Of a stretch of 41,875 nt of DNA, positions 5,037-19,707 are shown one piece after another (position 1 is the first letter of the stretch; the number at the start of each line of letters is the position of its first letter). The translations under genes were made by a program, and so were the position numbers. The notes beneath the pieces were generated by a model. That model did not search any database and was not told the DNA's origin. It worked only from the letters and a program-made list of their open reading frames with translations. The stretch comes from a virus: positions 1-41,875 of the IMG/VR virus record IMGVR_UViG_3300049032_000032, one strand, 5' to 3'.

Positions 5037-5080
5037 ACGATACAGGACAAACTGTGTATCGTCAAGTACCTTTAAGTACC
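5037..5080 (-). promoter_or_regulatory. Leftward promoter with direct-repeat element and inverted repeat
   Basis: On the minus strand, GGTACTT-AAA-GGTACTT (5080-5064) runs into -35 TTGACG (5065-5060), a 17-bp spacer and -10 TATCGT (5042-5037). The spacer and -10 together contain a perfect inverted repeat CGATACA-N10-TGTATCG, a likely operator. The direct-repeat element recurs upstream of other operons in this genome. Confidence 0.65.
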
Positions 5081-5087
5081 TGCCTGC

Positions 5088-5465: not shown

Positions 5466-5605
5466 GCTGCGTCCAGCCTGTGGATTCTTGCCTGAATAAC
5501 CTCCCAGTCGTCCCCAGCCCTTGCGCACATGGCCTTGGCTGCGGCCTCAATCGCTTGATCAAATAAGTTCATAGCTGGCTCCCCTGCTTCATTGATCACG
5601 TTCAT
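5462..5605 (-). CDS. Small hypothetical protein, diverged ISDEAVEAA-like family
   Basis: A 47-residue protein. ATG at 5605 overlaps the upstream TGA. An internal ATG (MNLFDQAIEAAAKAM) has its own AGGGGAG and may be the true start, giving 36 residues. The core FDQAIEAAAKAMCARAGDDW resembles the N-terminal half of the DEAVEAA small-protein family found three more times in this genome, but lacks the AAAPYIA half. Confidence 0.6.
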   Translation of the reverse strand: MNVINEAGEPAMNLFDQAIEAAAKAMCARAGDDWEVIQARIHRLDAA

Positions 5606-6399
5606 GCTGCTCCGTTGATCGGGTGTTTGTGGCGGCGGGCGGTGATTTGGTCGAGTACGTCGCCGAGCCTGTATGCCGGCGGGATTGGGTTGCCAGCTTC
5701 GTCGTGTTCGGGGTTGGCCCTGGTGATTTTGTCCCGTAAGGCCCATTTGCGGATTTGGTCGGCGGTAACAGTGTGTCCGTACTGCGGCGCACTGAGTTTC
5801 CGTGAGAGGTCGGTTGCGGTGCCGATGTAGTAGTCTTTGGCGGTTGTTGCATGCGCCCGCCATTTGAGGACTTCGTAGGTAGTGCCGCAGGTTCGGCATT
5901 GGGCTTCCTGGTCACCTTTTGCCGCGTAGAGGTCGCTCTGGCATTCGGCGCATTGTCCTGCGAACACGCGGCCCTCGGTGCGGTGGGCGTGGTCTTGTCC
6001 GTGGCGTAGGTGGGTGCGCAGTTCGGGCTCAACCGTGTGTGCCCAGTCTTGCCGGCGGAGTGTGTCGAGGTGGGTGATGAGGTACGCGGCGATACCCTGG
6101 CTGGTGCGTGAGCTTATAGGGCCGGTGATATAAGCTAATTTTAGGCCCGTGCGCATGAGGTACGTGTGGAGTGCGTGTCGTGCGTCGAATACGTGTTCGT
6201 TGATGGGTAGGGGCGCGTGCAACGGGCCCGAGGACGATACCCTCTCTCCATAGCCCGCTGTCAGCGAGGTTCGTGCAACACCCGCGTCCAACACCTCAAC
6301 GACCCCATCAACCTCCGCCAACGCATAAGCCAGGCTCTCACCACAGGTCGTGCAGACGTAGAAGCCGTCCGGCGTTTCAGAACCACACTTGCAAATCAA
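5602..6399 (-). CDS. Zinc-finger/HTH DNA-binding protein
   Basis: A 265-residue protein. The N-terminus has a zinc ribbon (CKCGSE and CTTCGES). A second follows near residues 150-172 (CAECQSD and CRTCGTT). The C-terminal third (YYIGTATDLSRKLS, then TADQIRKWALRDKI, then YRLGDVLDQI) reads as a MerR-like winged helix that pairs a condition with a row-name 'YRLGDV' strand. This points to a sequence-specific regulator. The start is TTG at 6399 with GAGAGGGA at 5-nt spacing. The stop overlaps the next ATG. Confidence 0.75.
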   Translation of the reverse strand: MICKCGSETPDGFYVCTTCGESLAYALAEVDGVVEVLDAGVARTSLTAGYGERVSSSGPLHAPLPINEHVFDARHALHTYLMRTGLKLAYITGPISSRTSQGIAAYLITHLDTLRRQDWAHTVEPELRTHLRHGQDHAHRTEGRVFAGQCAECQSDLYAAKGDQEAQCRTCGTTYEVLKWRAHATTAKDYYIGTATDLSRKLSAPQYGHTVTADQIRKWALRDKITRANPEHDEAGNPIPPAYRLGDVLDQITARRHKHPINGAA

Positions 6400-7378: not shown

Positions 7379-7422
7379 ACAATACTCAATTGTACCGCGG
7401 ATGCTAAGTATTTTTAAGTACC
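7379..7422 (-). promoter_or_regulatory. Leftward promoter with direct-repeat element
   Basis: On the minus strand, GGTACTT-AAA-AATACTT (7422-7406) leads into -35 TTAGCA (7407-7402), a 17-bp spacer and -10 TATTGT (7384-7379). The element overlaps the last codons of the RusA gene. It heads the 7.3-5.1 kb operon. Confidence 0.6.
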
Positions 7423-7772
7423 TGCTCGAACAAAAAAAGGATGCCTGGTTCGCCGATTCCACCATGTCTGTGGTCGGGCCCGATGACATGATTCCAGTCA
7501 TCGTCTACCAAAATTCCTGCATCGACGAAGCCATCGATACACGACTTGGTTGTCAAATTTAGGTTGTTCGGGTCGTACCTGCCGCGGCGGGGTTTGTAGA
7601 TGTGCGCCTCGATCCTGACCGGCCCATCGAACGGATCCCAACCAGCGACCGCCACCCTTGCTGCTTCACGCCACGCCTTAACCCGGTTCGCCTTCACCAT
7701 CCTATGCAGCCGCATATTGCTGTTCAGCCAATCGTCAGCCTTCGGAACGAACAGAGACTGTTGGGCGCTCAT
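7404..7772 (-). CDS. rusA: RusA-like Holliday junction resolvase
   Basis: A 122-residue endodeoxyribonuclease of the RusA type. It forms a homodimer that resolves four-way junctions during replication and recombination. The signature is the acidic block after a basic beta-hairpin: PRRGRYDPNNLNLTTKS, then DGFVDAGILVDDDWNHV, supplying the metal-binding aspartates. ATG at 7772 overlaps the upstream TGA and has support from the coupled arrangement. An in-frame extension upstream is not needed. The stop lies inside the next operon's promoter element. Confidence 0.85.
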   Translation of the reverse strand: MSAQQSLFVPKADDWLNSNMRLHRMVKANRVKAWREAARVAVAGWDPFDGPVRIEAHIYKPRRGRYDPNNLNLTTKSCIDGFVDAGILVDDDWNHVIGPDHRHGGIGEPGILFLFEQVLKNT

Positions 7773-10696: not shown

Positions 10697-10738
10697 GGTA
10701 CTTCAGGGTACTTCATTCGGTGGGTATTTTTAAGTACC
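10697..10738. promoter_or_regulatory. Two inverted direct-repeat elements
   Basis: Plus strand GGTACTT-CAG-GGTACTT at 10697-10713 faces minus strand GGTACTT-AAA-AATACCC at 10738-10722. This is the only place where two copies of the element face each other. I see no good -10 for either orientation. Confidence 0.55.
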
Positions 10739-10752
10739 CTGTACGGCGTGGC

Positions 10753-12208: not shown

Positions 12209-12355
12209 TTAGGACTCGCTTTCTTTGATGTATGCCTCGAGGGCTTTGCGGATGATGTCGGATAGGTTGTCGCCCCGTACAGCGGCGACCTCCTGGGCTT
12301 TCTCCCAAAGCTCCTCGTCTATGCGGACACTACGGCGGGTTGTTCCTTGGCTCAT
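12209..12355 (-). CDS. Ribbon-helix-helix regulator (lytic-strand copy)
   Basis: A 48-residue RHH/CopG-type protein: TTRRSVRIDEELWEKAQ forms the N-terminal strand and helix A, then GDNLSDIIRKALEAYIKES forms helix B. RHH proteins bind DNA as dimers through the paired strand. It closely resembles the 51-aa RHH protein on the plus strand at 18795-18950 (shared RRS-R core, KAQEVA/QAQEVA and GDNLSD.IR.AL). ATG at 12355 overlaps the upstream TGA. A candidate ligand is the palindrome in the twin promoters. Confidence 0.8.
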   Translation of the reverse strand: MSQGTTRRSVRIDEELWEKAQEVAAVRGDNLSDIIRKALEAYIKESES

Positions 12356-12633
12356 GCGGTGGCGTCCTTGTGGTGTCGAAACCCCGCGCCCCAGCCACGC
12401 TCGTAGGCATCCTTTACCATCGGGTTGGGAGAGTCCTTGTTGAATAGAAGCGGAGTTTCGAGCTCATGAGCGATTGCCCTGAGATTCCCTTCTCGGATGA
12501 ATCCCGCGAGCATGTGCGGTGCCGCAGCCTCAACCGCTTTGACGCACTTACCGCGCCAGTCGAGGCAATACTCTAGGTCGTCTTCGCAGATCGCCCGGTG
12601 CGCTGCTTCTACTGCTTCGTCACTGATCTGCAT
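12352..12633 (-). CDS. ISDEAVEAA-family small protein (lytic-strand copy)
   Basis: A 93-residue protein. The N-terminus ISDEAVEAAHRAICEDDLEY and the later KAVEAAAPHMLAGFI match the small proteins at 17970 and 18947, with DEAVEAA at the start and AAAPxh in the middle. The C-terminal extension (VKDAYERGWGAGFRHHKD) is unique to this copy. GGGGAGAACA precedes the ATG at 12633. The family is common in actinophages and its function is unknown. Confidence 0.75.
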   Translation of the reverse strand: MQISDEAVEAAHRAICEDDLEYCLDWRGKCVKAVEAAAPHMLAGFIREGNLRAIAHELETPLLFNKDSPNPMVKDAYERGWGAGFRHHKDATA

Positions 12634-12835
12634 TGTTCTCCCCAAGTAGTGGCATTAGCTCGATTGCCTGATGCGCGGCTAAGGTTCTTGCGTCGTCGGC
12701 ACGTGTGGCACCATCAAGTCGCATCTCTAATCCACATCGACATACGACGAAGCCGATACCCGACCTGTCTGTGTTGTATGACTTGGCGTGCTTGGCCAAG
12801 ACTTCCGCGATGGCGACTTTCGATGGGTGATTCAC
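12620..12835 (-). CDS. Small hypothetical protein
   Basis: A 71-residue protein beginning MNHPSKVAIAEVLAKHAKSY, with a central beta segment GFVVCRCGLEMRLDGATRAD and a helical C-terminus. The VAEVLAKH...C.CG.......R.DDA..LAAHQA..L pattern is recognisable as a small actinophage zinc-ribbon-like family of unknown function. GTG at 12835 overlaps the upstream TGA (GTGA). Confidence 0.7.
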   Translation of the reverse strand: MNHPSKVAIAEVLAKHAKSYNTDRSGIGFVVCRCGLEMRLDGATRADDARTLAAHQAIELMPLLGENNADQ

Positions 12836-12999
12836 TTCTGGTATCCGTTGCTGATAAGCCAGCCTGCGATGTACTCCTCAACTGGGGCAACTTCCTCGCC
12901 GTAGCCGATTTCGAGGTTGCGGTTTGCGATGGCCATTTCGATCATGTCTTGCATCTCTGCGATTGCTGCGTTCATGGCCCGGATTTCGTTGATGTTCAT
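12832..12999 (-). CDS. Small Met-rich helical protein, first gene after the twin promoter
   Basis: A 55-residue protein (MNINEIRAMNAAIAEMQDMI, then ANRNLEIGYGEEVAPVEEYI). Five Met residues fall in the first helix, spaced 3-4 apart on one face. AAGGGGAAGG lies upstream of the ATG at 12999. It starts about 35 nt downstream of the -10 at 13045-13040, so it is the first cistron of that operon. Unrecognised. Confidence 0.65.
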   Translation of the reverse strand: MNINEIRAMNAAIAEMQDMIEMAIANRNLEIGYGEEVAPVEEYIAGWLISNGYQK

Positions 13000-13039
13000 T
13001 GTCTTCGCCTTCCCCTTATCGGCTTGTTCCGATGCACTA

Positions 13040-13106
13040 AGTCTAGGTGTCTTGACACCATCTGTCTACTTAAAAGTACCCAATCTACAAAGTATTTTTA
13101 AGTACC
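13040..13106 (-). promoter_or_regulatory. Leftward twin promoter with palindromic operator in the spacer
   Basis: On the minus strand the order is GGTACTT-AAA-AATACTT (13106-13090), then GGGTACTTTTAAGTA overlapping -35 TAGACA (13068-13063), a 17-bp spacer containing GGTGTCAAGACACC (13059-13046), and -10 TAGACT (13045-13040). The whole block aligns base for base with the rightward promoter at 18363-18429. The palindrome would let a dimeric repressor block both hexamers. Confidence 0.75.
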
Positions 13107-13137
13107 TACATCAGCAAGGAACAACGAACCCCTGAGA

Positions 13138-13827
13138 TTAGAAGCTGATCTCCTCGAAGTGGTTGATGCGTTCGGTTGCGGGCCTGCCTTTGACGGCGGT
13201 GGCGTAGTTTTCGAGCATGACCTTGGCGGCGTCCTCGAAGGTTTGGACGGCTTCGGTGATAGCGGCGAACCACTTCTGATCCGGGTACACGCGCTTCACA
13301 AACAACGGCATACCGCCTGAGTAACTGACATAGTCGAGCCAGGATCGTCCGGTGACAAGCAGGCCCGTCTGAATCTGTGCCATGTTCTCGAGCGGCACCT
13401 CATCAGCCAGGATCGTGGCGAGGTGCTTCTTCTGCCGGCGCGACTTGATCTCAATGAGGCCGTCGTCATCAACCAGGCCGTCGGGGGAGTATCCGAGTTT
13501 GAACCCTAGGTCGTCTCGGACCATGAACCCAACCTCCGCGGCGGGTGCGTAATGCTCTGAGTAAATGTCGCGGGCGTACGGCTCATCCAACGTGCCACGC
13601 AGCATGTCAGCATTCTCGTGGATGGGTTCAACATGCCCTGTGATCCGCTCAGCAACCAACGTGGTTGTGAGTGCCCGTGAGTAGTCGTTGCTGGCGGGCT
13701 TCACAGTCTTAGGTGTGATCAACTGCCCAACAACCGAGGCCGTCACAATCCCGCAACGAGCCGCCAACCACTCGTCGGTGCCCTGAACCAGGTCATCAAA
13801 AACCTGCAAACTAATCGTCGCGCTCAT
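13138..13827 (-). CDS. YqaJ-family viral recombinase/exonuclease
   Basis: A 229-residue lambda-exonuclease-like PD-(D/E)xK nuclease. It shows GTDEWLAARCGIVTAS (residues 16-31), MLRGTLDEPYAR (75-86), the active-site pair GYSPDGLV (Asp116) with LIEIKSR (Glu126, Lys128), and MAQIQTGLLVTGR (149-161). It resects double-strand ends for phage recombination, normally with an annealing protein; none is obvious in this window. ATG overlaps the upstream TGA. It ends just before the twin promoter, so that promoter serves the genes downstream of it. Confidence 0.88.
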   Translation of the reverse strand: MSATISLQVFDDLVQGTDEWLAARCGIVTASVVGQLITPKTVKPASNDYSRALTTTLVAERITGHVEPIHENADMLRGTLDEPYARDIYSEHYAPAAEVGFMVRDDLGFKLGYSPDGLVDDDGLIEIKSRRQKKHLATILADEVPLENMAQIQTGLLVTGRSWLDYVSYSGGMPLFVKRVYPDQKWFAAITEAVQTFEDAAKVMLENYATAVKGRPATERINHFEEISF

Positions 13828-14342
13828 GCTGCTTGCTCTCCTTCTGCTTCGATGAAGCGGCTGATCTTTTCGATATGAGAACGGGTTAGACCGTGGGTTG
13901 TGTTGGGGCTGATGACAAGTCCTCCACCTTCTGACTTGACCCAGTTCAGCGCCTCGGGTTCCGCTGAAATGTCGTCATCGACCCATATGAACCGGTCATT
14001 GTTTGACGCCACGTCTTCGCGGATCGCTTGGAGCTTCCACCAGTCCCGCCCATGCCATGCGTGCTGGTCGCCGTGAAGCACTTCCCACTCTTGACCGTTG
14101 AGGCCGGTTGCAGGGCTAAGTTCGTTCGCGGCTTCGTCTTCCCAAGTTGTGAGCCACTTGAAAGTGACACTGGGAAGTTCAGCTAGACGGTTCAGCTCAT
14201 CGATAAGTTCCGGTGAGTATAGGATCTGCCAGCCGCTAATCTTCTTTGTCGCCCATTTCTGCCAGCCCGTTATCTTTAGAGCCGGGCTGTTCTTGGACAC
14301 GGCGTTAATCACCCCGTCTACGTCTAGGTAGATAGTGCTCAT
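13824..14342 (-). CDS. HAD-like hydrolase
   Basis: A 172-residue protein with HAD motif I IYLDVDGVIN (Asp7, Asp9), motif II FKWLTTW, and a late motif RFIWVDDDIS. It lacks a large cap domain. Actinophage proteins of this type, often labelled HAD-like or polynucleotide-kinase-phosphatase-like, may remove phosphates from DNA or RNA ends or from nucleotides. It is coupled at both ends (ATGA) between a 42-aa Cys protein and the YqaJ nuclease, which favours a role in DNA metabolism. Confidence 0.75.
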   Translation of the reverse strand: MSTIYLDVDGVINAVSKNSPALKITGWQKWATKKISGWQILYSPELIDELNRLAELPSVTFKWLTTWEDEAANELSPATGLNGQEWEVLHGDQHAWHGRDWWKLQAIREDVASNNDRFIWVDDDISAEPEALNWVKSEGGGLVISPNTTHGLTRSHIEKISRFIEAEGEQAA

Positions 14343-14467
14343 TCGAGGTCGTCCTTCGTGAGGGTGGATTCGATTACTGGGTCACAACCGCAGATGTCGC
14401 ATTCGCAGTGGTTGCTCTTGGGTCGGCGTGGTACCAGGGGCTCGTCGTCCTCGGGGGAGTAGCTCAC
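14339..14467 (-). CDS. 42-aa Cys-rich protein
   Basis: A 42-residue protein beginning MSYSPEDDEPLVPRRPKSNH, with the zinc-binding cluster CECDICGC in the middle and an acidic tail. GTG at 14467 overlaps the upstream TGA, and its TGA overlaps the HAD gene ATG. The CxC-x2-CxC cluster resembles small actinophage proteins of unknown function. Confidence 0.65.
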   Translation of the reverse strand: MSYSPEDDEPLVPRRPKSNHCECDICGCDPVIESTLTKDDLE

Positions 14468-14634
14468 AGGACGTGGCCCATGATGACGCCAATCAAATCC
14501 GGGGCCTTCTTGTCCAAGTAGCGGAGGGCGAGGCGTTCGTCTTCCTCGTTCCTGGGCACATGGTTCAACACGCGCTGCTTACCGAACGTGTGCGTCGACG
14601 CGAACTGGTTATTGCTCGGCTGATCGTTGTTCAT
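14464..14634 (-). CDS. Small hypothetical protein
   Basis: A 56-residue protein (MNNDQPSNNQFASTHTFGKQ, then NHVPRNEEDERLALRYLDKK). It is hydrophilic with a charged central helix. AAGGAG lies 7 nt before the ATG at 14634. A four-codon frame (ATG AGC AAG GAG TAA, 14653-14639) covers that SD and could couple translation. It is the first gene below the element at 14685-14701. Confidence 0.6.
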   Translation of the reverse strand: MNNDQPSNNQFASTHTFGKQRVLNHVPRNEEDERLALRYLDKKAPDLIGVIMGHVL

Positions 14635-14684
14635 GGGGTTACTCCTTGCTCATGGGGGTAATACTCAAAGATACTGCACGCGCC

Positions 14685-14701
14685 GGGTAGTTCTAAGTAC
14701 C
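14685..14701 (-). promoter_or_regulatory. Degenerate direct-repeat element
   Basis: On the minus strand, GGTACTT-AGA-ACTACCC: the first half-site is perfect and the second is degenerate. Possible -10s (TATCTT or TATTAC) lie downstream, but spacing to a -35 is poor. Confidence 0.45.
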
Positions 14702-14714
14702 GACACGGACAAAA

Positions 14715-14795
14715 CTATTTACGGTTTGGCTGGGTGATGAGGCGGGCCGACTGGATGCCCGCGGCTACGGTCGCGACAAGAAGAACGAGGATCAC
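14715..14795 (-). CDS. Possible 26-aa membrane peptide
   Basis: GTG at 14795 overlaps the upstream TGA (GTGA). The frame encodes a short hydrophobic peptide (VILVLLVATVAAGIQSARLI) with one possible membrane helix, then a polar tail. It is the last frame before the operator at 14701. The coupling and the hydrophobic character support expression, but the size makes the call tentative. Confidence 0.4.
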   Translation of the reverse strand: MILVLLVATVAAGIQSARLITQPNRK

Positions 14796-15151
14796 GCCGC
14801 CACCATCTTCCCGAAGCCGGCGTTGGTGAGGAGCGCCGTGGTTTCGCGCCCGATCCTGCCGACCAGGTAGTCGCGGACAAGGTCGGTGTTATCAACCGTG
14901 CCGGCGAGGTTCGTCACCAACTCCGGGTGCGTGCCATGCTCGACCGAATCGAGCTCTTCAAAGGACGTCACGAGTTCCTCGATGTCGTAATGGCTGGGCG
15001 TGACACCCAGGATCCGGCCCAGACTGGCCTGCAGCTTGAGGGCCCGAGTGACAAACGCGTTCGGCTCCTCGTTATACGGTGTCGCATCCACAAACGACCG
15101 CACCAACTGCTGCACCATAATCCGTGCGCCATCCTCAGTAATCCGCATCAT
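14792..15151 (-). CDS. Hypothetical helical protein
   Basis: A 119-residue protein. It reads MMRITEDGARIMVQQLVRSF, then ATPYNEEPNAFVTRALKLQA, then VTPSHYDIEELVTSFEELDS, ending LLTNAGFGKMVAA. It is mostly helical and acidic. ATG at 15151 overlaps the upstream TGA. An upstream in-frame Met at 15193 lies inside the preceding gene. No family is recognised. Confidence 0.7.
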   Translation of the reverse strand: MMRITEDGARIMVQQLVRSFVDATPYNEEPNAFVTRALKLQASLGRILGVTPSHYDIEELVTSFEELDSVEHGTHPELVTNLAGTVDNTDLVRDYLVGRIGRETTALLTNAGFGKMVAA

Positions 15152-15306
15152 GCTCCCTGCTCCTTCATGCTCGCTTCGATAGCTTCGTTCCAAACATCCA
15201 CGGTGATGCGCTCGCCCAACTCGAGAGTCGCCTTGAGATAGCCGAGCATGTGGAACGGATTAACATCCGCTTCCGCCGGGCTTGCGACCTTTATGCGTTC
15301 GTTCAT
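15148..15306 (-). CDS. Small hypothetical protein
   Basis: A 52-residue protein (MNERIKVASPAEADVNPFHM, then YLKATLELGERITVDVWNEA). Helical with a beta start. ATG at 15306 overlaps the excisionase-like TGA and its own TGA overlaps the next ATG. Function unknown; a partner of the excisionase-like protein is possible from position. Confidence 0.65.
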   Translation of the reverse strand: MNERIKVASPAEADVNPFHMLGYLKATLELGERITVDVWNEAIEASMKEQGA

Positions 15307-15533
15307 TGCTTGTTCCTCCGTGCTGCTCGTGTGCCGACTCTTGGTGTGCGGCGGGGTTCAGGCGGGGCCTGCTGATACTTCGCCCGGATAGCCTCAATGT
15401 CCTCCGACGAGAACCGAAGCTCAGTACCGAAACGATGACAGGGCCACAGGTCTTGCTTCTTCAACCGGTAAGCAGTCGAACGGCTAATGCCGAACAACTC
15501 CGCAACCTCACCGATAGTCTTCAACGGCTCCAT
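15303..15533 (-). CDS. Excisionase-like / MerR-type HTH protein
   Basis: A 76-residue protein with a single winged helix: TIGEVAELFGISRSTAYRLK, then QDLWPCHRFGTELRFSSEDI, then a basic Arg/Pro tail. This layout (HTH, short wing with FGTELRFS, E-x2-I) is that of phage excisionases and small MerR-like regulators. With an integrase in the genome, control of excision is plausible, although the gene is in the early lytic operon and 4.7 kb from int. The ATG at 15533 lies 2 nt after the upstream TAG. Confidence 0.7.
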   Translation of the reverse strand: MEPLKTIGEVAELFGISRSTAYRLKKQDLWPCHRFGTELRFSSEDIEAIRAKYQQAPPEPRRTPRVGTRAARRNKQ

Positions 15534-15535
15534 GA

Positions 15536-16021
15536 CTAGGCCGCGCGGGCAGTTAGTTCGCTGATGTAGATCTTCAGTTCGGGGCCATTGTTGAACCACT
15601 CGCCGGCGACTCGTAGGTGAGCGAACTGTCGGTGCAGTTCCTGTTCCCGTCGCTGGCCTCCTGGTTCAGTCGCGAGCAGTTTGGCGTTCGACGGGTCGAG
15701 GCCTTTAGGCATCTGGACGGACCCGCTACGGATACTTTTGACCCGAAGCTCTGGATCGAGTGACTGGCCGATTTTGATTCGGCGTCCTGCCTTGACGAAG
15801 TAGACAAGTGCAGCGTCGCGGCGGTCCTGAGCTTCTACGACCTTCGAGTCGATGTACTTAGACATTGCGTTCCGGAGTCCTCTGTCCTCTGCGGCGCGGA
15901 TGTTCCGCTGGAAGGTATCCAAGTGGGACTTGCAGAGAGGGATGATGTCCAGCGCCATTTTCTTGGACTGGCGTCCGCATCGAACGGTGCCGTAGCGGTA
16001 TGCGCCGCACTGCTCGCTCAT
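15536..16021 (-). CDS. GIY-YIG superfamily nuclease-like protein (T5orf172/Mug113 type)
   Basis: A 161-residue protein. An N-terminal segment has CGAYRYGTVRCG and PLCKSH, possibly metal-binding. The C-terminal domain reads LVYFVKAGRRIKIGQS, then LLATEPGGQRREQELHRQFA, then VAGEWFNNGPE, the hallmark of the T5orf172 branch of GIY-YIG nucleases (YFV, IKIG, E..LH..F, GEWF). ATG at 16021 overlaps the Cro-like TGA. An upstream extension would cover the Cro-like gene and was rejected. Possible roles are recombination or host DNA attack. Confidence 0.75.
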   Translation of the reverse strand: MSEQCGAYRYGTVRCGRQSKKMALDIIPLCKSHLDTFQRNIRAAEDRGLRNAMSKYIDSKVVEAQDRRDAALVYFVKAGRRIKIGQSLDPELRVKSIRSGSVQMPKGLDPSNAKLLATEPGGQRREQELHRQFAHLRVAGEWFNNGPELKIYISELTARAA

Positions 16022-16305
16022 GCCGCGACCTTGATTCGTGAGTGGGGGTTGCGGACCATGCGTGCGTGGGCGGGGTCTGTGACGAGGATGAGGGTTTCGA
16101 CTTCGTAGGTGATGTCTTCGGATGAGATGCCGAGGCCGATGCAGATGAGGTGCAGTGCGTCTTCGGTCGGCTGGCGTTCGCCGGTCTCGATTCGCTGCAA
16201 GTGGGAGGGGGAGATACCTGCTTGCAGGGCGAGTGCGTCCTGGGTGATTCCTTTGGCTTTGCGGATGACCCTGATGGCCTTTCCGACTACTTTTCGTTCG
16301 TTCAT
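16018..16305 (-). CDS. Cro-like XRE-family regulator (leaderless)
   Basis: A 95-residue protein. After a short basic N-terminus comes an XRE HTH: GKAIRVIRKAKGITQDALA, then LQAGISPSHLQRIETGERQ, then TEDALHLICIGLGI. A C-terminal segment (DPAHARMVRNPHSRIKVAA) has no clear domain. It is divergent from the repressor gene, the classic cro position. The ATG at 16305 lies 7 nt after a -10 (CATACT), has no SD, and so is probably translated from a leaderless mRNA. An in-frame extension to 16557 through the operator region was rejected. Confidence 0.8.
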   Translation of the reverse strand: MNERKVVGKAIRVIRKAKGITQDALALQAGISPSHLQRIETGERQPTEDALHLICIGLGISSEDITYEVETLILVTDPAHARMVRNPHSRIKVAA

Positions 16306-16653
16306 AGGAACCAGTATGCAGACATGCGCAGGAATGCGCAAGTCCACGCACGCACTTTCCGGAAGGAACGCGCAAGTACCAGAAATCCGCGCCAACACTG
16401 GGAAGCAGGGGTGAATTACAAGGGGTGCATGCCGGGAACGTGCGCGAAAATTGCCACAAAAGAATTTTGGACTTGCGCGGTTTCGCCGTGGGACGCTTTC
16501 ACCCAGACGCAGTAAGAGGAAACAACTGGAACCAGCCGGAACCAAGTAGCGACTCACGAAAAAACTGCGTACACATACGCAGAACTAGGTAGTTACACAG
16601 CCGGACTCAGCCGGCCCACTACCTATAGACAGATACGCAGTTGGGGGAAGAAA
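16306..16653. promoter_or_regulatory. Immunity intergenic region between cro-like and repressor genes
   Basis: This 348-bp stretch carries no gene. Besides the cro promoter it holds a perfect operator palindrome CTGCGTA-CACA-TACGCAG (16565-16582), a further TACGCAG half-site (16634-16640) just upstream of the repressor start, an ACGCAG half-site at 16507, and TAGGTAGT/ACTACCTA (inverted, about 16586-16624) around two CAGCCGG copies. A TATAGA at 16624-16629 is a possible -10 for the repressor, without a good -35. Confidence 0.6.
16313..16341 (-). promoter_or_regulatory. Early leftward (cro) promoter with repeated ATGCGCA operators
   Basis: On the minus strand, -35 TTGCGC (16341-16336), 17-bp spacer, -10 CATACT (16318-16313); the expected transcript start coincides with the ATG at 16305. 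Two ATGCGCA heptamers on the plus strand at 16324 and 16334 are exactly 10 bp apart and cover the spacer and -35, making them likely repressor sites. Confidence 0.65.
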
Positions 16654-17325
16654 GTGGAAGCTATGAGCAACATCTCGGCAGAAGACATCAGGAATGGAAG
16701 GGAGCGGAAAATGATGACCCAGCAGGAACTAGCGGATGAGGTTGGTGTTTCGCTCCGCACGGTCAGCTCTTGGGAGCGCGGCGAGACGGTGCCCCGGAAT
16801 CGGTTAGGTGTCATAGCTGAAGTCCTCGGGCTTGAGGGCGCTAGGGAGTTCGGTCGCGAGGCTCTACTTCGCCAGCTCGGACGCCTTGCTAAGCAGCGGA
16901 GGGAAGAAATTGGCTTGGGGAGGCCTGCGTTCGCTAAGGAAGCGGGTCTAGGGTCAGACAAGACCGTGGCCTCCTTCGAATTTGGGCGGGTACTTCCCTC
17001 TGGCGTCTCTCAAAGGAAGATCGAGAAGGCCCTTGGTTGGAGGCTCGGCATTATTGACGAGTGCATGAGGATGGTTGACCGCAAAGCTTCCACGATTGAC
17101 ATGACCGAACTCGACGCGGAAGACAGCCTCTACATCCAGTCCCAGGGTGGCATCTCTTCGCTGGCCCTTGTCTCTGATGATGACCTGCTCGCGGAGGTGC
17201 GCCGGCGGATGACTTCGCGCACGGGCCGGAACTTGTCTAGGGAGGCGCAGGATATCTATGGGCTGGCGGCTTCGACTAACGCTGAGCACATCGAGGACGA
17301 GGACCACGACGATACCGCGGAGTAG
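16654..17325 (+). CDS. Immunity repressor with two tandem HTH domains
   Basis: A 223-residue protein. The first XRE domain (residues about 10-60) reads MMTQQELADEVGVSLRTVSS then WERGETVPRNRLGVIAEVLG. A second HTH-like region (75-135) reads LAKQRREEIGLGRPAFAKEA, GSDKTVASFEFGR and RKIEKALGW. The C-terminus is acidic (EHIEDEDHDDTAE) and lacks a LexA-type protease domain. This suits a CI-like repressor that is inactivated by a partner protease rather than by self-cleavage. Start is GTG at 16654 after GGGGGAAG, or ATG at 16663. The ImmA-like gene follows. Confidence 0.85.
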   Translation: MEAMSNISAEDIRNGRERKMMTQQELADEVGVSLRTVSSWERGETVPRNRLGVIAEVLGLEGAREFGREALLRQLGRLAKQRREEIGLGRPAFAKEAGLGSDKTVASFEFGRVLPSGVSQRKIEKALGWRLGIIDECMRMVDRKASTIDMTELDAEDSLYIQSQGGISSLALVSDDDLLAEVRRRMTSRTGRNLSREAQDIYGLAASTNAEHIEDEDHDDTAE

Positions 17326-17462
17326 GTTACGGTCTCGTGATTAAGGACACGCGTCAACTTTCCATTAATAGGACGTTTTCTTCTGAAACTGTCACAGGTC
17401 TCGTTTAGCTTTAACGGGTTGGTTTCGATTGAGGCCGACACGGGTTCCGGTTCTGGGGGTTT

Positions 17463-17870
17463 TTGGTTTTGTTCGTGTATAGGGTGCGTATGACTGATGG
17501 TGTGGCAGCTCGTACGGATGGGGTGGATATTTGGATTGATGACAGGCTGAACGAGGTTCAGGAGAAGTGCGCGATAGTCCATGAGGAAATCCATATCGAG
17601 CGCGGCCACAGCACGGTTCAACCCGAGGCGGTGGAGATGGGCGTCAGGTATGAGGCAGCGCGTCGGCTGCTACCGGACTCCGGCATCGGTTCGTGCAGCG
17701 GGTCTACGTTGGCTCAGGTGGCTCGTAACTTGGGTGTGACGCGCCAGGTTTTGATGGATCGGGCCGCGACGTTGACGGACGAGGAAACAGAGCGTGCCGG
17801 CTGCCTATCCTGCCGACTCTGCCCGATCATCGACGCTAGGTACCCAGCGAAACAGTACGCCAACGCTTAG
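17463..17870 (+). CDS. ImmA/IrrE-family metallopeptidase
   Basis: Up to 135 residues. It contains the zinc protease motif VHEEIHIERGH (HExxH near residues 39-43), with YEAARRLLPDSGI downstream and a Cys pair near the C-terminus (CLSCRLC). In ICEBs1-like and many actinophage immunity systems such a protease cleaves the adjacent repressor to trigger induction. The start is uncertain: TTG at 17463 or 17469, or ATG at 17490. The 137-bp gap after the repressor has no clear gene. A strong terminator follows the stop. Confidence 0.8.
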   Translation: MVLFVYRVRMTDGVAARTDGVDIWIDDRLNEVQEKCAIVHEEIHIERGHSTVQPEAVEMGVRYEAARRLLPDSGIGSCSGSTLAQVARNLGVTRQVLMDRAATLTDEETERAGCLSCRLCPIIDARYPAKQYANA

Positions 17871-17882
17871 TCTGCACCTTTT

Positions 17883-17907
17883 AGCCCCCGTTAGCGCGGG
17901 GGCTTTC
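17883..17907 (+). terminator. Intrinsic terminator after the ImmA-like gene
   Basis: AGCCCCC-GTTAGCGC-GGGGGCT followed by TTC. The same core (CCCGTTAGCGCGGGGGCTTT) recurs at 18328-18352, where it lies inside an open reading frame. Confidence 0.85.
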
Positions 17908-17919
17908 TGGTGGGCTGGT

Positions 17920-17963
17920 GGTACGCGGAAGTACTTACGCCGTTGAGTCTTTCGGGGTATCGT
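17920..17963 (+). promoter_or_regulatory. Rightward promoter with direct-repeat element; leaderless start
   Basis: GGTACGC-GGA-AGTACTT (17920-17936) leads into -35 TTACGC (17935-17940), a 17-bp spacer and -10 TATCGT (17958-17963). The ATG of the next gene is 6 nt further, where transcription should start. Confidence 0.65.
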
Positions 17964-17969
17964 TGGGGT

Positions 17970-18173
17970 ATGAGCGACAATAAACCAATGATCAGTGACG
18001 AAGCAGTAGAAGCGGTGTACGACAAGTTCTTTCACTTGGGACTTAGCGCAACCCAGATTGAGGGGATCCTTGAGGCGGCGGCGCCGTACATCGCGGCTCA
18101 GGCTTGGGATGAGGGCCGGGAATCGGTCGACTTCGACAGCTGCGGCATTAACCCGTATAGGAGCCAGGCGTGA
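17970..18173 (+). CDS. ISDEAVEAA-family small protein (leaderless copy)
   Basis: A 67-residue protein (MSDNKPMISDEAVEAVYDKF, then GILEAAAPYIAAQAWDEG, ending GINPYRSQA). It shares DEAVEAx and EAAAPYIAAQxWDE with the protein at 18947-19195, and more weakly with 12352-12633. No SD is present; the ATG falls at the predicted transcript start. Its last codons belong to the 24-nt junction repeat that also starts the next gene. Function unknown. Confidence 0.75.
   Translation: MSDNKPMISDEAVEAVYDKFFHLGLSATQIEGILEAAAPYIAAQAWDEGRESVDFDSCGINPYRSQA
18150..18173 (+). repeat. Junction repeat copy 1 (stop + SD + start cassette)
   Basis: AACCCGTATAGGAGCCAGGC followed by GTGA. It encodes the C-terminal NPYRSQA and stop of the upstream gene, contains the SD (TAGGAG) and supplies the GTG start of the next gene. 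Confidence 0.9.
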
Positions 18174-18382
18174 ACGATATGACATGGTACTTGGTCGGCG
18201 CCGGGCTGTGGATCTTCGCCACTGGCTTCAATCACGCCCTGTATCGGAGTAAGTGGACGGCGCGTGCTTTCTTCGCGTTCCCTGTCTGGCCTGTTGCGCT
18301 AGTCGTGTTCGCGGGCATGGGGCTCGTGCCCCCGTTAGCGCGGGGGCTTTTTGGTGGGGGGGGGTGCTTAAAGAAACTTTGA
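18170..18382 (+). CDS. Small membrane protein whose frame runs through a terminator
   Basis: A 70-residue frame from GTG 18170, with the SD in the junction repeat. Residues about 5-22 (TWYLVGAGLWIFATGF) and 36-58 (FPVWPVALVVFAGMGLV) are probable membrane helices. From residue about 53 the frame reads through the terminator at 18328-18352, and its stop (18380-18382) lies inside the next promoter's direct-repeat element. If termination is efficient, the mRNA has no stop codon. The last 17 codons may therefore be an accident of a truncated gene. Confidence 0.6.
   Translation: MNDMTWYLVGAGLWIFATGFNHALYRSKWTARAFFAFPVWPVALVVFAGMGLVPPLARGLFGGGGCLKKL
18328..18352 (+). terminator. Intrinsic terminator (second copy of the 17.9 kb hairpin)
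   Basis: GCCCCC-GTTAGCGC-GGGGGC followed by TTTTT. The core is identical to the terminator after the ImmA-like gene but here has a better U-tract. It lies inside the 3' end of the membrane-protein frame. Confidence 0.85.
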
Positions 18383-18429
18383 TGATTGGGTGCTTTTGGG
18401 TAGACAAGCGGTGTCAAGACACCTAGACT
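18363..18429 (+). promoter_or_regulatory. Rightward twin promoter with palindromic operator in the spacer
   Basis: GGTGCTT-AAA-GAAACTT (18363-18379), then GGGTGCTTTTGGGTA overlapping -35 TAGACA (18401-18406), a 17-bp spacer with GGTGTCAAGACACC (18410-18423), and -10 TAGACT (18424-18429). It is the counterpart of the leftward promoter at 13040-13106. Confidence 0.75.
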
Positions 18430-18469
18430 AGATACATAAGCAAGGAACACCAACCAAGGAGAGATTCAA

Positions 18470-18652
18470 ATGATCGCAGTAGAAAACCTCGAAGTCGGAA
18501 TGATGATCATCCCCGAAGGCCGCAAGCTCGCCGTAGAGGTCATGAGCGTTGACAACTGGGGCAACGAGAGCCTCTACAAGATCGGCCACTATGGCAAGGG
18601 CTTCAACGTAACCGCCGTTCCCGCCGGCGCAATGGTCCGGCTCGCAGCATGA
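18470..18652 (+). CDS. Small beta-rich hypothetical protein
   Basis: A 60-residue protein (MIAVENLEVGMMIIPEGRKL, then MSVDNWGNESLYKIGHYGKG). The 'L.VGM.I' opening followed by short strands resembles small SH3/OB-like beta proteins, also seen in intein-like or SAF folds, but no family can be named. AAGGAGA precedes the ATG, about 40 nt after the -10 of the twin promoter. Its TGA overlaps the next ATG. Confidence 0.7.
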   Translation: MIAVENLEVGMMIIPEGRKLAVEVMSVDNWGNESLYKIGHYGKGFNVTAVPAGAMVRLAA

Positions 18653-18798
18653 ACAACCGGGCGGAGGCCCTCGCAATCGCGAGGGCCGCTGTTCCCTACT
18701 ACCAGGAACAGTATGAAGCTAAACCGAACTGGTATACGGAGTCACGGCTAGCCTTAGCGCAACGAGCGGTAGAAGTGCTGGAAGGGGAGCCCGCATGA
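18649..18798 (+). CDS. 49-aa helical protein
   Basis: A 49-residue protein beginning MNNRAEALAIARAAVPYYQE and ending RLALAQRAVEVLEGEPA. Two helices are joined by a Trp/Tyr-containing linker. Both ends overlap neighbours by ATGA, so it lies inside a coupled operon between the beta-rich protein and the RHH regulator. Its AEALAIARAAVPYY resembles helices in small actinophage proteins of unknown role. Confidence 0.65.
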   Translation: MNNRAEALAIARAAVPYYQEQYEAKPNWYTESRLALAQRAVEVLEGEPA

Positions 18799-18950
18799 GT
18801 AAGGGAACTATCCGCCGCAGCATCCGGGTTGGCGAGCTATGGGACCAAGCGCAGGAAGTCGCCAACCAGAACGGCGACAACCTATCCGACGTAATCCGGC
18901 AAGCACTTGCACAATACGTGCGAGACAAGCAGGAAGGCCCCCCAGAATGA
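18795..18950 (+). CDS. Ribbon-helix-helix regulator (lysogeny-strand copy)
   Basis: A 51-residue RHH protein: TIRRSIRVGELWDQAQEVA, then GDNLSDVIRQALAQYVRDKQ. It is a paralogue of the 48-aa protein at 12209-12355. Both operons carry the same promoter palindrome, so one or both RHH proteins are good candidates to bind it. ATG at 18795 and TGA at 18948-18950 both overlap neighbours. Confidence 0.8.
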   Translation: MSKGTIRRSIRVGELWDQAQEVANQNGDNLSDVIRQALAQYVRDKQEGPPE

Positions 18951-19195
18951 TCAGTGACGAAGCAGTAGAAGCAGCGGCGCGTGCTCAGTTCGAGAAATGG
19001 CACCCCGAAAAGAAATGGGACGATAGGCCTGACATTCAGAGGATCTTCCGGCGAGATGCGCTGGTCTCCCTTGAGGCGGCGGCACCGTACATCGCCGCTC
19101 AGGTTTGGGACGAGGCAGCCGCCAGCATCATCGACGAACACGGCAACCCCATCCAACCAACCAACATCAACAACCCGTATAGGAGCCAGGCATGA
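18947..19195 (+). CDS. ISDEAVEAA-family small protein (lysogeny-strand copy)
   Basis: An 82-residue protein (MISDEAVEAAARAQFEKWHP, then SLEAAAPYIAAQVWDEA, ending NNPYRSQA). ATG at 18947 overlaps the RHH stop; a longer in-frame reading from 18839 would cover the RHH gene. The linker between the two conserved halves is 19 residues longer than in the 17970 copy. The 3' end is the second junction repeat. Confidence 0.75.
   Translation: MISDEAVEAAARAQFEKWHPEKKWDDRPDIQRIFRRDALVSLEAAAPYIAAQVWDEAAASIIDEHGNPIQPTNINNPYRSQA
19172..19195 (+). repeat. Junction repeat copy 2
   Basis: AACCCGTATAGGAGCCAGGC followed by ATGA; the only copy giving an ATG start to the next gene. Confidence 0.9.
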
Positions 19196-19341
19196 GCGCT
19201 GTAGCGAAGTGCAACGAGCCGATGCGGACCCAGAACGGCAACACGTACAAATGCACCAAGCCGTTAGGGCATAGGGGCCAGCACGTAGACAGCCGCCACC
19301 CAATCAGACGATGGACCAACCCGTATAGGAGCCAGGCGTGA
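19192..19341 (+). CDS. 49-aa Cys/His protein
   Basis: A 49-residue protein (MSAVAKCNEPMRTQNGNTYK, then CTKPLGHRGQHVDSRHP, ending NPYRSQA). The C-N-E-P...Y-x-C-x3-LGHxGxH pattern fits a compact zinc knuckle seen in small phage proteins. Start and stop both fall in junction repeats, so it looks like a cassette inserted between two identical boundaries. Confidence 0.65.
   Translation: MSAVAKCNEPMRTQNGNTYKCTKPLGHRGQHVDSRHPIRRWTNPYRSQA
19318..19341 (+). repeat. Junction repeat copy 3
   Basis: AACCCGTATAGGAGCCAGGC followed by GTGA, giving the GTG start of the 87-aa gene. Confidence 0.9.
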
Positions 19342-19601
19342 ATGAGATAAGGCGGCAGTGCAAGGACATCCTGGATGGCCCATTGCTTGGACTCATCGCC
19401 CGCAAGCAGCGCGAGAAGGGCATGTGGGTAAACACGTGGGACTTCGAGCCGCCATACTCCGAACTGCCTGACAATCTGTTCCGAGCCAAGATGGGACAAC
19501 TCATGAAGCGCGGGCTGATCGACGGGTGCAACTGCGGATGCCGAGGCGACTACGAGTTGACCGACAAGGGCAGAGAGTTCCTAGCTAACGCGACGGCCTA
19601 A
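19338..19601 (+). CDS. Winged-helix-like small protein
   Basis: An 87-residue protein (MNEIRRQCKDILDGPLLGLI, then PDNLFRAKMGQLMKRGLIDG, then CNCGCRGDYELTDKGREFL). The LxxRGLI-C-x-CGCRGDYELTxKGxEF core is a winged helix with a wing strand of the 'y.LT.kG' type and a CxCxC turn. It resembles small DNA-binding proteins of actinophages. GTG start from junction repeat 3. A terminator follows the stop. Confidence 0.7.
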   Translation: MNEIRRQCKDILDGPLLGLIARKQREKGMWVNTWDFEPPYSELPDNLFRAKMGQLMKRGLIDGCNCGCRGDYELTDKGREFLANATA

Positions 19602-19605
19602 TGAA

Positions 19606-19636
19606 GGCCCTTCACCTGTCCGGGTGGGGGCTTTTT
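19606..19636 (+). terminator. Intrinsic terminator
   Basis: GCCC-TT-CACC-TGTCC-GGTG-GG-GGC followed by TTTTT, directly after the 87-aa gene. Confidence 0.75.
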
Positions 19637-19683: not shown

Positions 19684-19707
19684 AACCCGTATAGGAGCCA
19701 GGCGTGA
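19684..19707 (+). repeat. Junction repeat copy 4
   Basis: AACCCGTATAGGAGCCAGGC followed by GTGA. The upstream frame that would end in NPYRSQA is only 21 codons (GTG 19642), starting inside the tail of the preceding terminator, so the repeat here seems to have been acquired together with its gene. Confidence 0.9.

Follow-up and report, generated by a model that had tools for sequence, protein, structure and literature searches.

The virus record analysed here (IMG/VR IMGVR_UViG_3300049032_000032; the window, 41,875 bases) carries on opposite strands two short operons that each encode a very small ribbon-helix-helix (RHH) protein and a member of a second family, here called DEAVEAA, and that start at closely similar promoters; the question this raises is what unit has been doubled and what the two copies would do for the phage. 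The original prediction took them for an old inverted duplication, within this phage, of an RHH+DEAVEAA regulatory cassette. We describe a different unit: what recurs across phages is the operon and not the RHH+DEAVEAA pair, and it consists of a promoter whose -35/-10 spacer is filled by a palindrome, a leader, one to six mostly unrelated small cargo genes, and an RHH protein of 45–105 residues. We propose, with a probability of roughly 0.78, that the window holds two autorepressed, pulse-expressed mobile cargo operons that resemble the anti-CRISPR (acr-aca) operons but are controlled by an RHH repressor.

The four open reading frames (ORFs) at issue, two RHH and two DEAVEAA, lie where the original prediction had placed them (Table 1). 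In the direction of transcription the minus-strand operon runs from its promoter (13068–13040) through a 55-aa and a 71-aa gene to DEAVEAA and then RHH, whereas the plus-strand operon, which is bracketed by terminator-like hairpins, runs from its promoter (18401–18429) through a 60-aa and a 49-aa gene to RHH, DEAVEAA, and two more genes. The predicted operators are identical at 14 of 14 positions; the operator sequence GGTGTCAAGACACC has just these two copies in the window (0 expected), and GGTGTCNNGACACC is found only at the two promoters in 41.9 kb (0 expected from shuffled sequences). A consensus promoter search also returned just these two promoters in 8.5 kb, yet shuffles average 2.9.

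The operon is present in 14 phage contigs beyond the window, with, in addition, a near-identical copy and a contig that stops short of the RHH gene, and 16 RHH/operator pairs from 15 phage contigs, the window included, were available for comparison. Three partly independent entry points agree on this set; gene roles in the metagenomic contigs were judged by eye from translations, with no family search. A search for relatives with a single RHH sequence gave no match, and a scan of viral contigs from an alignment of three RHH sequences led to six contigs; MrSmee and L010–L015 all have the palindrome in the promoter upstream of RHH, with the promoters mostly of the form TTGACA-n-GGTGTATATACACC-nnn-TAGATT (GGTGTCATGACACC in L013). 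Scanning with the promoter pattern alone, its four central bases left free, gave six new contigs, of which L023, L027, and L029 have an RHH gene, L030 ends before it, and L024 and L026 are without one. The leader-first scan gave six more. RHH and palindrome are both present in L043, L044, L046, and L047 and both missing from L042; L045 is a chance match. The L042 leader (5057–5081, minus strand) is the same as in the RHH cassettes, and this contig is possibly a cassette whose control has been lost. A further contig, L009, retains an RHH remnant (5538–5639) that begins at about residue 20 and so is without the DNA-binding strand, and this contig is without the operator.

The RHH gene lies on the same strand as the promoter and 0.3–1.6 kb downstream of it, and in the cassettes measured the first cargo ATG is 61–65 nt from the -35 box, the exception being MrSmee, which has only a very short ORF there. 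The surroundings of the operon vary: it is antisense among structural genes in L013, L015, L023, L030, and L047, beside the integrase in L010, L027, L029, MrSmee, and L012, and after the repressor in L011. The other carriers of the gene package are soil phages. A search of isolate-phage DNA with the whole 8.5-kb region gave a terminator match only, and a plasmid search gave neither an RHH nor a promoter match. Bacterial genomes scanned with the promoter pattern gave one match, in a Kiritimatiellae metagenome-assembled genome (JAQUCE010000013.1; L048, about 1480–1737), where TTGACAT-GGTGTGCGCACACC-GTC-TATTAT stands directly 5' of a small ORF that looks RHH-like by eye and may be an RHH gene that is unrelated but has a promoter of the same design.

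The palindrome is present at the operon in every contig with an intact RHH gene. Each RHH-bearing contig has one match to the pattern GTGTMNNKACAC, which lies at the promoter of the operon, apart from a second match in L029 that overlaps its -35 and apart from L043, L044, and L047, whose operator variants the pattern misses; it is absent from five sequenced isolates that have no RHH. Promoter palindromes are commonly bound by host regulators or phage repressors, and the plus promoter lies near the main repressor gene of the phage, such that the palindrome could be the site of a protein of that kind, with the RHH protein a passenger. We consider this highly improbable: the operator goes with RHH whatever the other genes and is absent from RHH-less relatives, and operator base 6 follows residue 7 of the RHH protein.

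That correspondence holds throughout the 16 pairs. Arginine at residue 7 is accompanied by C at operator base 6 (5/5 pairs), and histidine, valine, isoleucine, or leucine by A (11/11), and residue 7 is the sole separating column among the 48 columns of the alignment, with chance probabilities of 2.3e-4 for column 7 and 0.003 for a group-uniform separating column anywhere. The Arg7 sequences are not one clade (p of the approximately unbiased test, p-AU, 0.035). Two comparisons show related cargo under differing control: L029 and L046 have cargo 1 proteins that are 82% identical and RHH proteins that are 45% identical, L013 and L044 have cargo 60% and RHH 51% identical, and in both cases residue 7 and the operator differ together. 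L047, with proline at residue 9 and G at operator base 5, offers a further hint. Structures of Arc and omega are the source for assigning the DNA-facing strand positions, and by alignment to these proteins residues 7, 9, and 11 are taken to be such positions. Comparison of the 16 packages suggests that one RHH amino acid matches one base of the DNA target. Both window RHH proteins have R7-S9-R11, and given that their operators are also identical, each is predicted to bind both promoters. The earlier suggestion, that each arm perhaps has its own regulator for the same operator, is supported in that each arm has one RHH regulator and both are predicted to read that operator.

Several observations weigh against the proposal of autorepressed cargo operons. 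The promoter-first contigs hold the operator by construction; the operators of L043 and L044 are shortened, to palindromes of 10 and 8 bp, and an 8-bp palindrome is found in 4% of random spacers; and the cargo gave no match to known counter-defence families in PHROG, Pfam, or PADLOC. The RHH tree is poorly resolved, with four independent changes at residue 7 on the best tree but only one forced by supported branches. Because the tree is weak and only one change is forced, we read the residue-7/base-6 relationship as a strong correlation and not as proof.

The RHH protein was modelled with AlphaFold2 (AF2) at a predicted local distance difference test score (pLDDT) of 89, with helices at residues 14–27 and 31–47 in a strand-helix-helix arrangement of about 45 residues. 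The model matches structure 6iya (TMq 0.81), and Arc, CopG, other RHH proteins, and RHH antitoxins are among its Foldseek matches; the RHH profile aligns to the omega and AvtR chains, and Pfam RHH_1 was found in 11 of 12 members and CopG_antitoxin in one. Known RHH antitoxins bind palindromic sites in the promoters from which they are expressed, their genes overlap those of the toxins, and with antitoxins among the structural and Pfam matches the operon could be read as a type II toxin-antitoxin module in which the RHH protein is an autoregulating antitoxin and the neighbouring small gene its toxin. We think this very unlikely, because most of the RHH proteins are bare, with 45–54 residues that stop just after helix 2 and leave no tail for toxin binding (L015 and MrSmee have longer tails), and because the partner changes, the neighbouring gene encoding a different, unrelated protein in most cassettes; moreover, no cargo protein matches a toxin family. 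In the first cassette set the cargo ORFs gave no usable PHROG, Pfam, or PADLOC match, nor were they convincingly similar to one another; cargo is shared between L011 and L043 (72%).

We favour a model in which a sigma-70-type promoter would drive a small set of short variable genes, accompanied or followed by the gene for a very small RHH protein with the Arc/CopG fold. An RHH dimer, and probably two dimers, would bind the 14-bp palindrome occupying the -35/-10 spacer and thereby block RNA polymerase. Because the repressor is encoded in its own operon, we infer a pulse of expression, in which the operon would fire at once on entry into a repressor-free cell and be shut off as RHH accumulates. 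With a shared operator and shared recognition residues, each RHH protein would repress both window operons, and a prophage would, through its RHH protein, also silence the early-operon copy of an infecting phage. Host-takeover or counter-defence genes probably make up the cargo. Some RHH proteins, AmrZ for example, activate as well as repress, and the RHH protein might similarly be an activator or an architectural protein at these promoters. We give this the slightest of weight, because the -35/-10 spacer is taken up by the site, and sites so placed exclude polymerase in characterised cases, the Aca repressors among them (PMC9410906).

The Aca repressors act on inverted repeats in core promoters (PMC9410906), and all 12 known families, Aca1–12, are helix-turn-helix proteins (PMC9765179). 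The operons described here are like acr-aca operons in having small, diverse cargo together with a conserved small gene for a repressor, here a putative one, in the same operon (PMC9410906, PMC9765179) and an inverted repeat within the core promoter, and unlike them in that the putative repressor is RHH, that the RHH gene is not always last in the operon, and that any anti-CRISPR role of the cargo is conjectural here. We do not file the RHH protein as an Aca because it is not of a helix-turn-helix family. A second parallel is Reg(p576), an RHH repressor of the pLS20-family clade II conjugative plasmids, with operators at establishment-gene promoters that are expressed transiently on entry; its control has been likened to phage anti-CRISPR control, with the remark that the phage repressors are helix-turn-helix (PMC8708921). 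The window operons look like a phage-borne version of this arrangement, in which an RHH repressor would do the same job, although Reg(p576) is from a Bacillus plasmid and its operators lie beside the promoters, on one side or on both, whereas the site here lies within the spacer. The fold is also that of Arc (phage P22), CopG, and omega (pSM19035), which read bases through alternate residues of the beta strand; omega binds arrays of heptads, and in P22 the lysogeny genes are regulated by Arc. Their operators differ from those described here, and none of the three is known to have swappable cargo. A text search of the literature, with most subscription journals outside it, found no paper with GGTGTATATACACC and none joining 'Arthrobacter phage' with 'ribbon-helix-helix'. 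Much more tentatively, the operons may represent a phage-borne class of RHH-controlled cargo operons that holds new counter-defence genes and is retargeted by swapping residue 7 and an operator base, with the two same-address copies joining the early operon and the lysogenic operon in a single feedback circuit.

The origin of the two copies can be considered separately from their control. A within-phage inverted duplication of RHH+DEAVEAA finds some support in the similarity of the arms: the RHH proteins are clear paralogues, as had been claimed (27/47 identical, E 1e-19; 101/135 bases identical, 75%), the promoter blocks are shared at 56 of 67 positions in inverted orientation, and in 12-sequence trees the two RHH proteins group together (bootstrap and Shimodaira-Hasegawa-like approximate likelihood ratio test, SH-aLRT, 87/88 and 92/90). 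This grouping lost resolution with 16 sequences, and we regard such a duplication as rather unlikely. The gene order is DEAVEAA-RHH in one operon and RHH-DEAVEAA in the other relative to transcription, and therefore no single inverted duplication of the pair accounts for both. Furthermore, the two arms have unrelated genes between promoter and RHH, the leaders are of two different types (13/40 identical), each also present in other phages, and the promoter core of the minus copy, GTACTTTTAAGTAGACA, is exactly matched in L046. The promoter blocks and RHH genes are nevertheless closer to each other than chance allows. A duplication of the promoter and RHH gene alone, with the cargo swapped later, is possible, and both this and two acquisitions from one pool fit the data.

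The minus copy is not at the head of the early operon but within it, where it separates the YqaJ gene from its usual neighbour. In Hestia these two genes adjoin directly with no cassette between them, and the minus copy looks like an insertion because the neighbour there directly follows the exonuclease; the YqaJ/exonuclease and the following gene are 56% and 45% identical between the window and Hestia. The minus-strand genes of the window also include SSB and a helix-turn-helix gene, and its plus-strand genes include a Cro/C1-type repressor, a metallo-protease-like gene (PHROG 87), and a tyrosine integrase.

Table 1. Coordinates of the two operons and associated features (positions in the window)
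Feature	Position	Strand	Remarks
Promoter block, minus copy	13040–13106	-	upstream GTACTT elements; -35 TAGACA 13068–13063; 17-nt spacer; -10 TAGACT 13045–13040
Predicted RHH operator GGTGTCAAGACACC, minus promoter	13046–13059		same promoter place as in related cassettes
Leader type A (ATCGGAACAAGCCGATAAGGGGAAGGCGAAGACA)	13000–13039	-	common to L007, L011, L015, L023, L029, L030, L043, L044, L046, L047; diverged in L010
Cargo 1, 55 aa	12832–12999	-	no family match
Cargo 2, 71 aa	12620–12835	-	no family match
DEAVEAA-family protein, 93 aa	12352–12633	-	predicted helical hairpin family
RHH protein, 48 aa	12209–12355	-	R7-S9-R11; PHROG 6506 Arc-like repressor 1.4e-8; RHH fold, pLDDT 89
Promoter block, plus copy	18363–18429	+	-35 TAGACA 18401–18406; 17-nt spacer; -10 TAGACT 18424–18429
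Predicted RHH operator GGTGTCAAGACACC, plus promoter	18410–18423		
Leader type B (AGCAAGGAACACCAACC...)	18430–18469	+	type common to L013, MrSmee, L012
Cargo 1, 60 aa	18470–18652	+	no usable family match
Cargo 2, 49 aa	18649–18798	+	no family match
RHH protein, 51 aa	18795–18950	+	R7-S9-R11; PHROG 6506 9.5e-9; 57% identical to minus RHH
DEAVEAA-family protein, 82 aa	18947–19195	+	AF2 pLDDT 90, helices 4–18, 28–59
Two further plus-operon genes	19192–19601	+	49 aa 19192–19341; 87 aa 19338–19601, PHROG 5135
Terminator-like hairpin directly upstream of plus operon	18328–18347	+	
Terminator-like hairpin ending plus operon	19609–19630	+	
Main repressor gene of phage	16657–17325		near plus promoter
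Third DEAVEAA gene	17970–18173		just upstream of plus operon; followed by small gene 18170–18382 and terminator-like hairpin

The DEAVEAA protein is a common multi-copy passenger. The family has several members each in the Arthrobacter phages Hum25, Pitbull, and MrSmee, and many phages, Hum25 and Pitbull among them, have DEAVEAA without RHH, while RHH is without an adjacent DEAVEAA in most cassettes, such that the two genes do not form the cassette originally proposed. They adjoin in both window copies, MrSmee, L012, and L043; in L010 and L047 DEAVEAA is at least one gene away from RHH, it may stand on either side, and most other cassettes have none nearby. An obligate RHH+DEAVEAA protein pair, adjacent in about 5 of 16 cassettes, was dropped as a candidate. 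So was the ATGA overlap as the mark of a special pair: the 4-nt overlap is indeed present at the RHH/DEAVEAA junction of both pairs, and the same length of overlap is seen at 10 of the 15 same-strand junctions tabulated. The DEAVEAA proteins of the two operons, which had also been called clear paralogues, have a weak overall likeness (E 3e-5), yet 28 of 28 bases are identical at the start of their genes. The DEAVEAA model had no match in the PDB, and a tblastn search with the protein returned nothing, probably due to the low-complexity filter.

At their first codons (12601–12628, 17990–18013, and 18949–18976) the three DEAVEAA genes of the window are identical in DNA over 24–28 nt, and the rest of each gene has diverged. 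The valine codon is GTA in 16 of 20 family members, which suggests a nucleotide-level constraint. Gene 32 of Hum25 (L005:11409–11586) starts MNISDEAV and continues with unrelated sequence, as though a block of DNA containing the gene start had been swapped.

Two further repeats are present in the window. Four identical 20-nt copies of AACCCGTATAGGAGCCAGGC stand directly 5' of start codons (18150–18173, 19172–19195, 19318–19341, and 19684–19707). They are like the start-associated sequence (SAS) of cluster K mycobacteriophages, the consensus of which is GGGATAGGAGCCC (PMC3203893), in their location at starts in the plus-operon region and in the core ATAGGAGCC, which lies within that consensus; they are unlike it in that the identical stretch is longer, there are four copies only, and the outer bases differ, and they have no part in RHH control. 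In three of the copies the sequence encodes an NPYRSQA tail, shared by proteins that otherwise differ, and the fourth is apparently non-coding, and for this reason the conserved NPYR tail looks like a translated, SAS-like ribosome-binding motif. Exact 23- and 20-mers of the DEAVEAA-start and SAS-like motifs were not found in other viral contigs. An element of about 40 nt (GGTACTTAAAAATAC...AGTA, minus strand) is present in four copies (7383–7423, 10699–10739, 13067–13107, and 14662–14702); three of them (10.7, 13.1, and 14.7 kb) are located in early-operon gaps, one is fused to the minus RHH promoter, and the elements are possibly early promoters or repressor operators.

If the RHH protein represses these promoters, then the palindrome, the leader, and the RHH gene would serve as bait for phage cargo genes of unknown function, for which there is a precedent in the use of Aca genes as bait for anti-CRISPRs. 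The residue-7/base-6 correlation would represent a specificity swap that occurred naturally in an Arc-like protein and is testable by a single point mutation. Finally, the presence of two identically addressed copies in one phage raises the question of whether a prophage, by way of its RHH protein, controls the early operon of an infecting phage.

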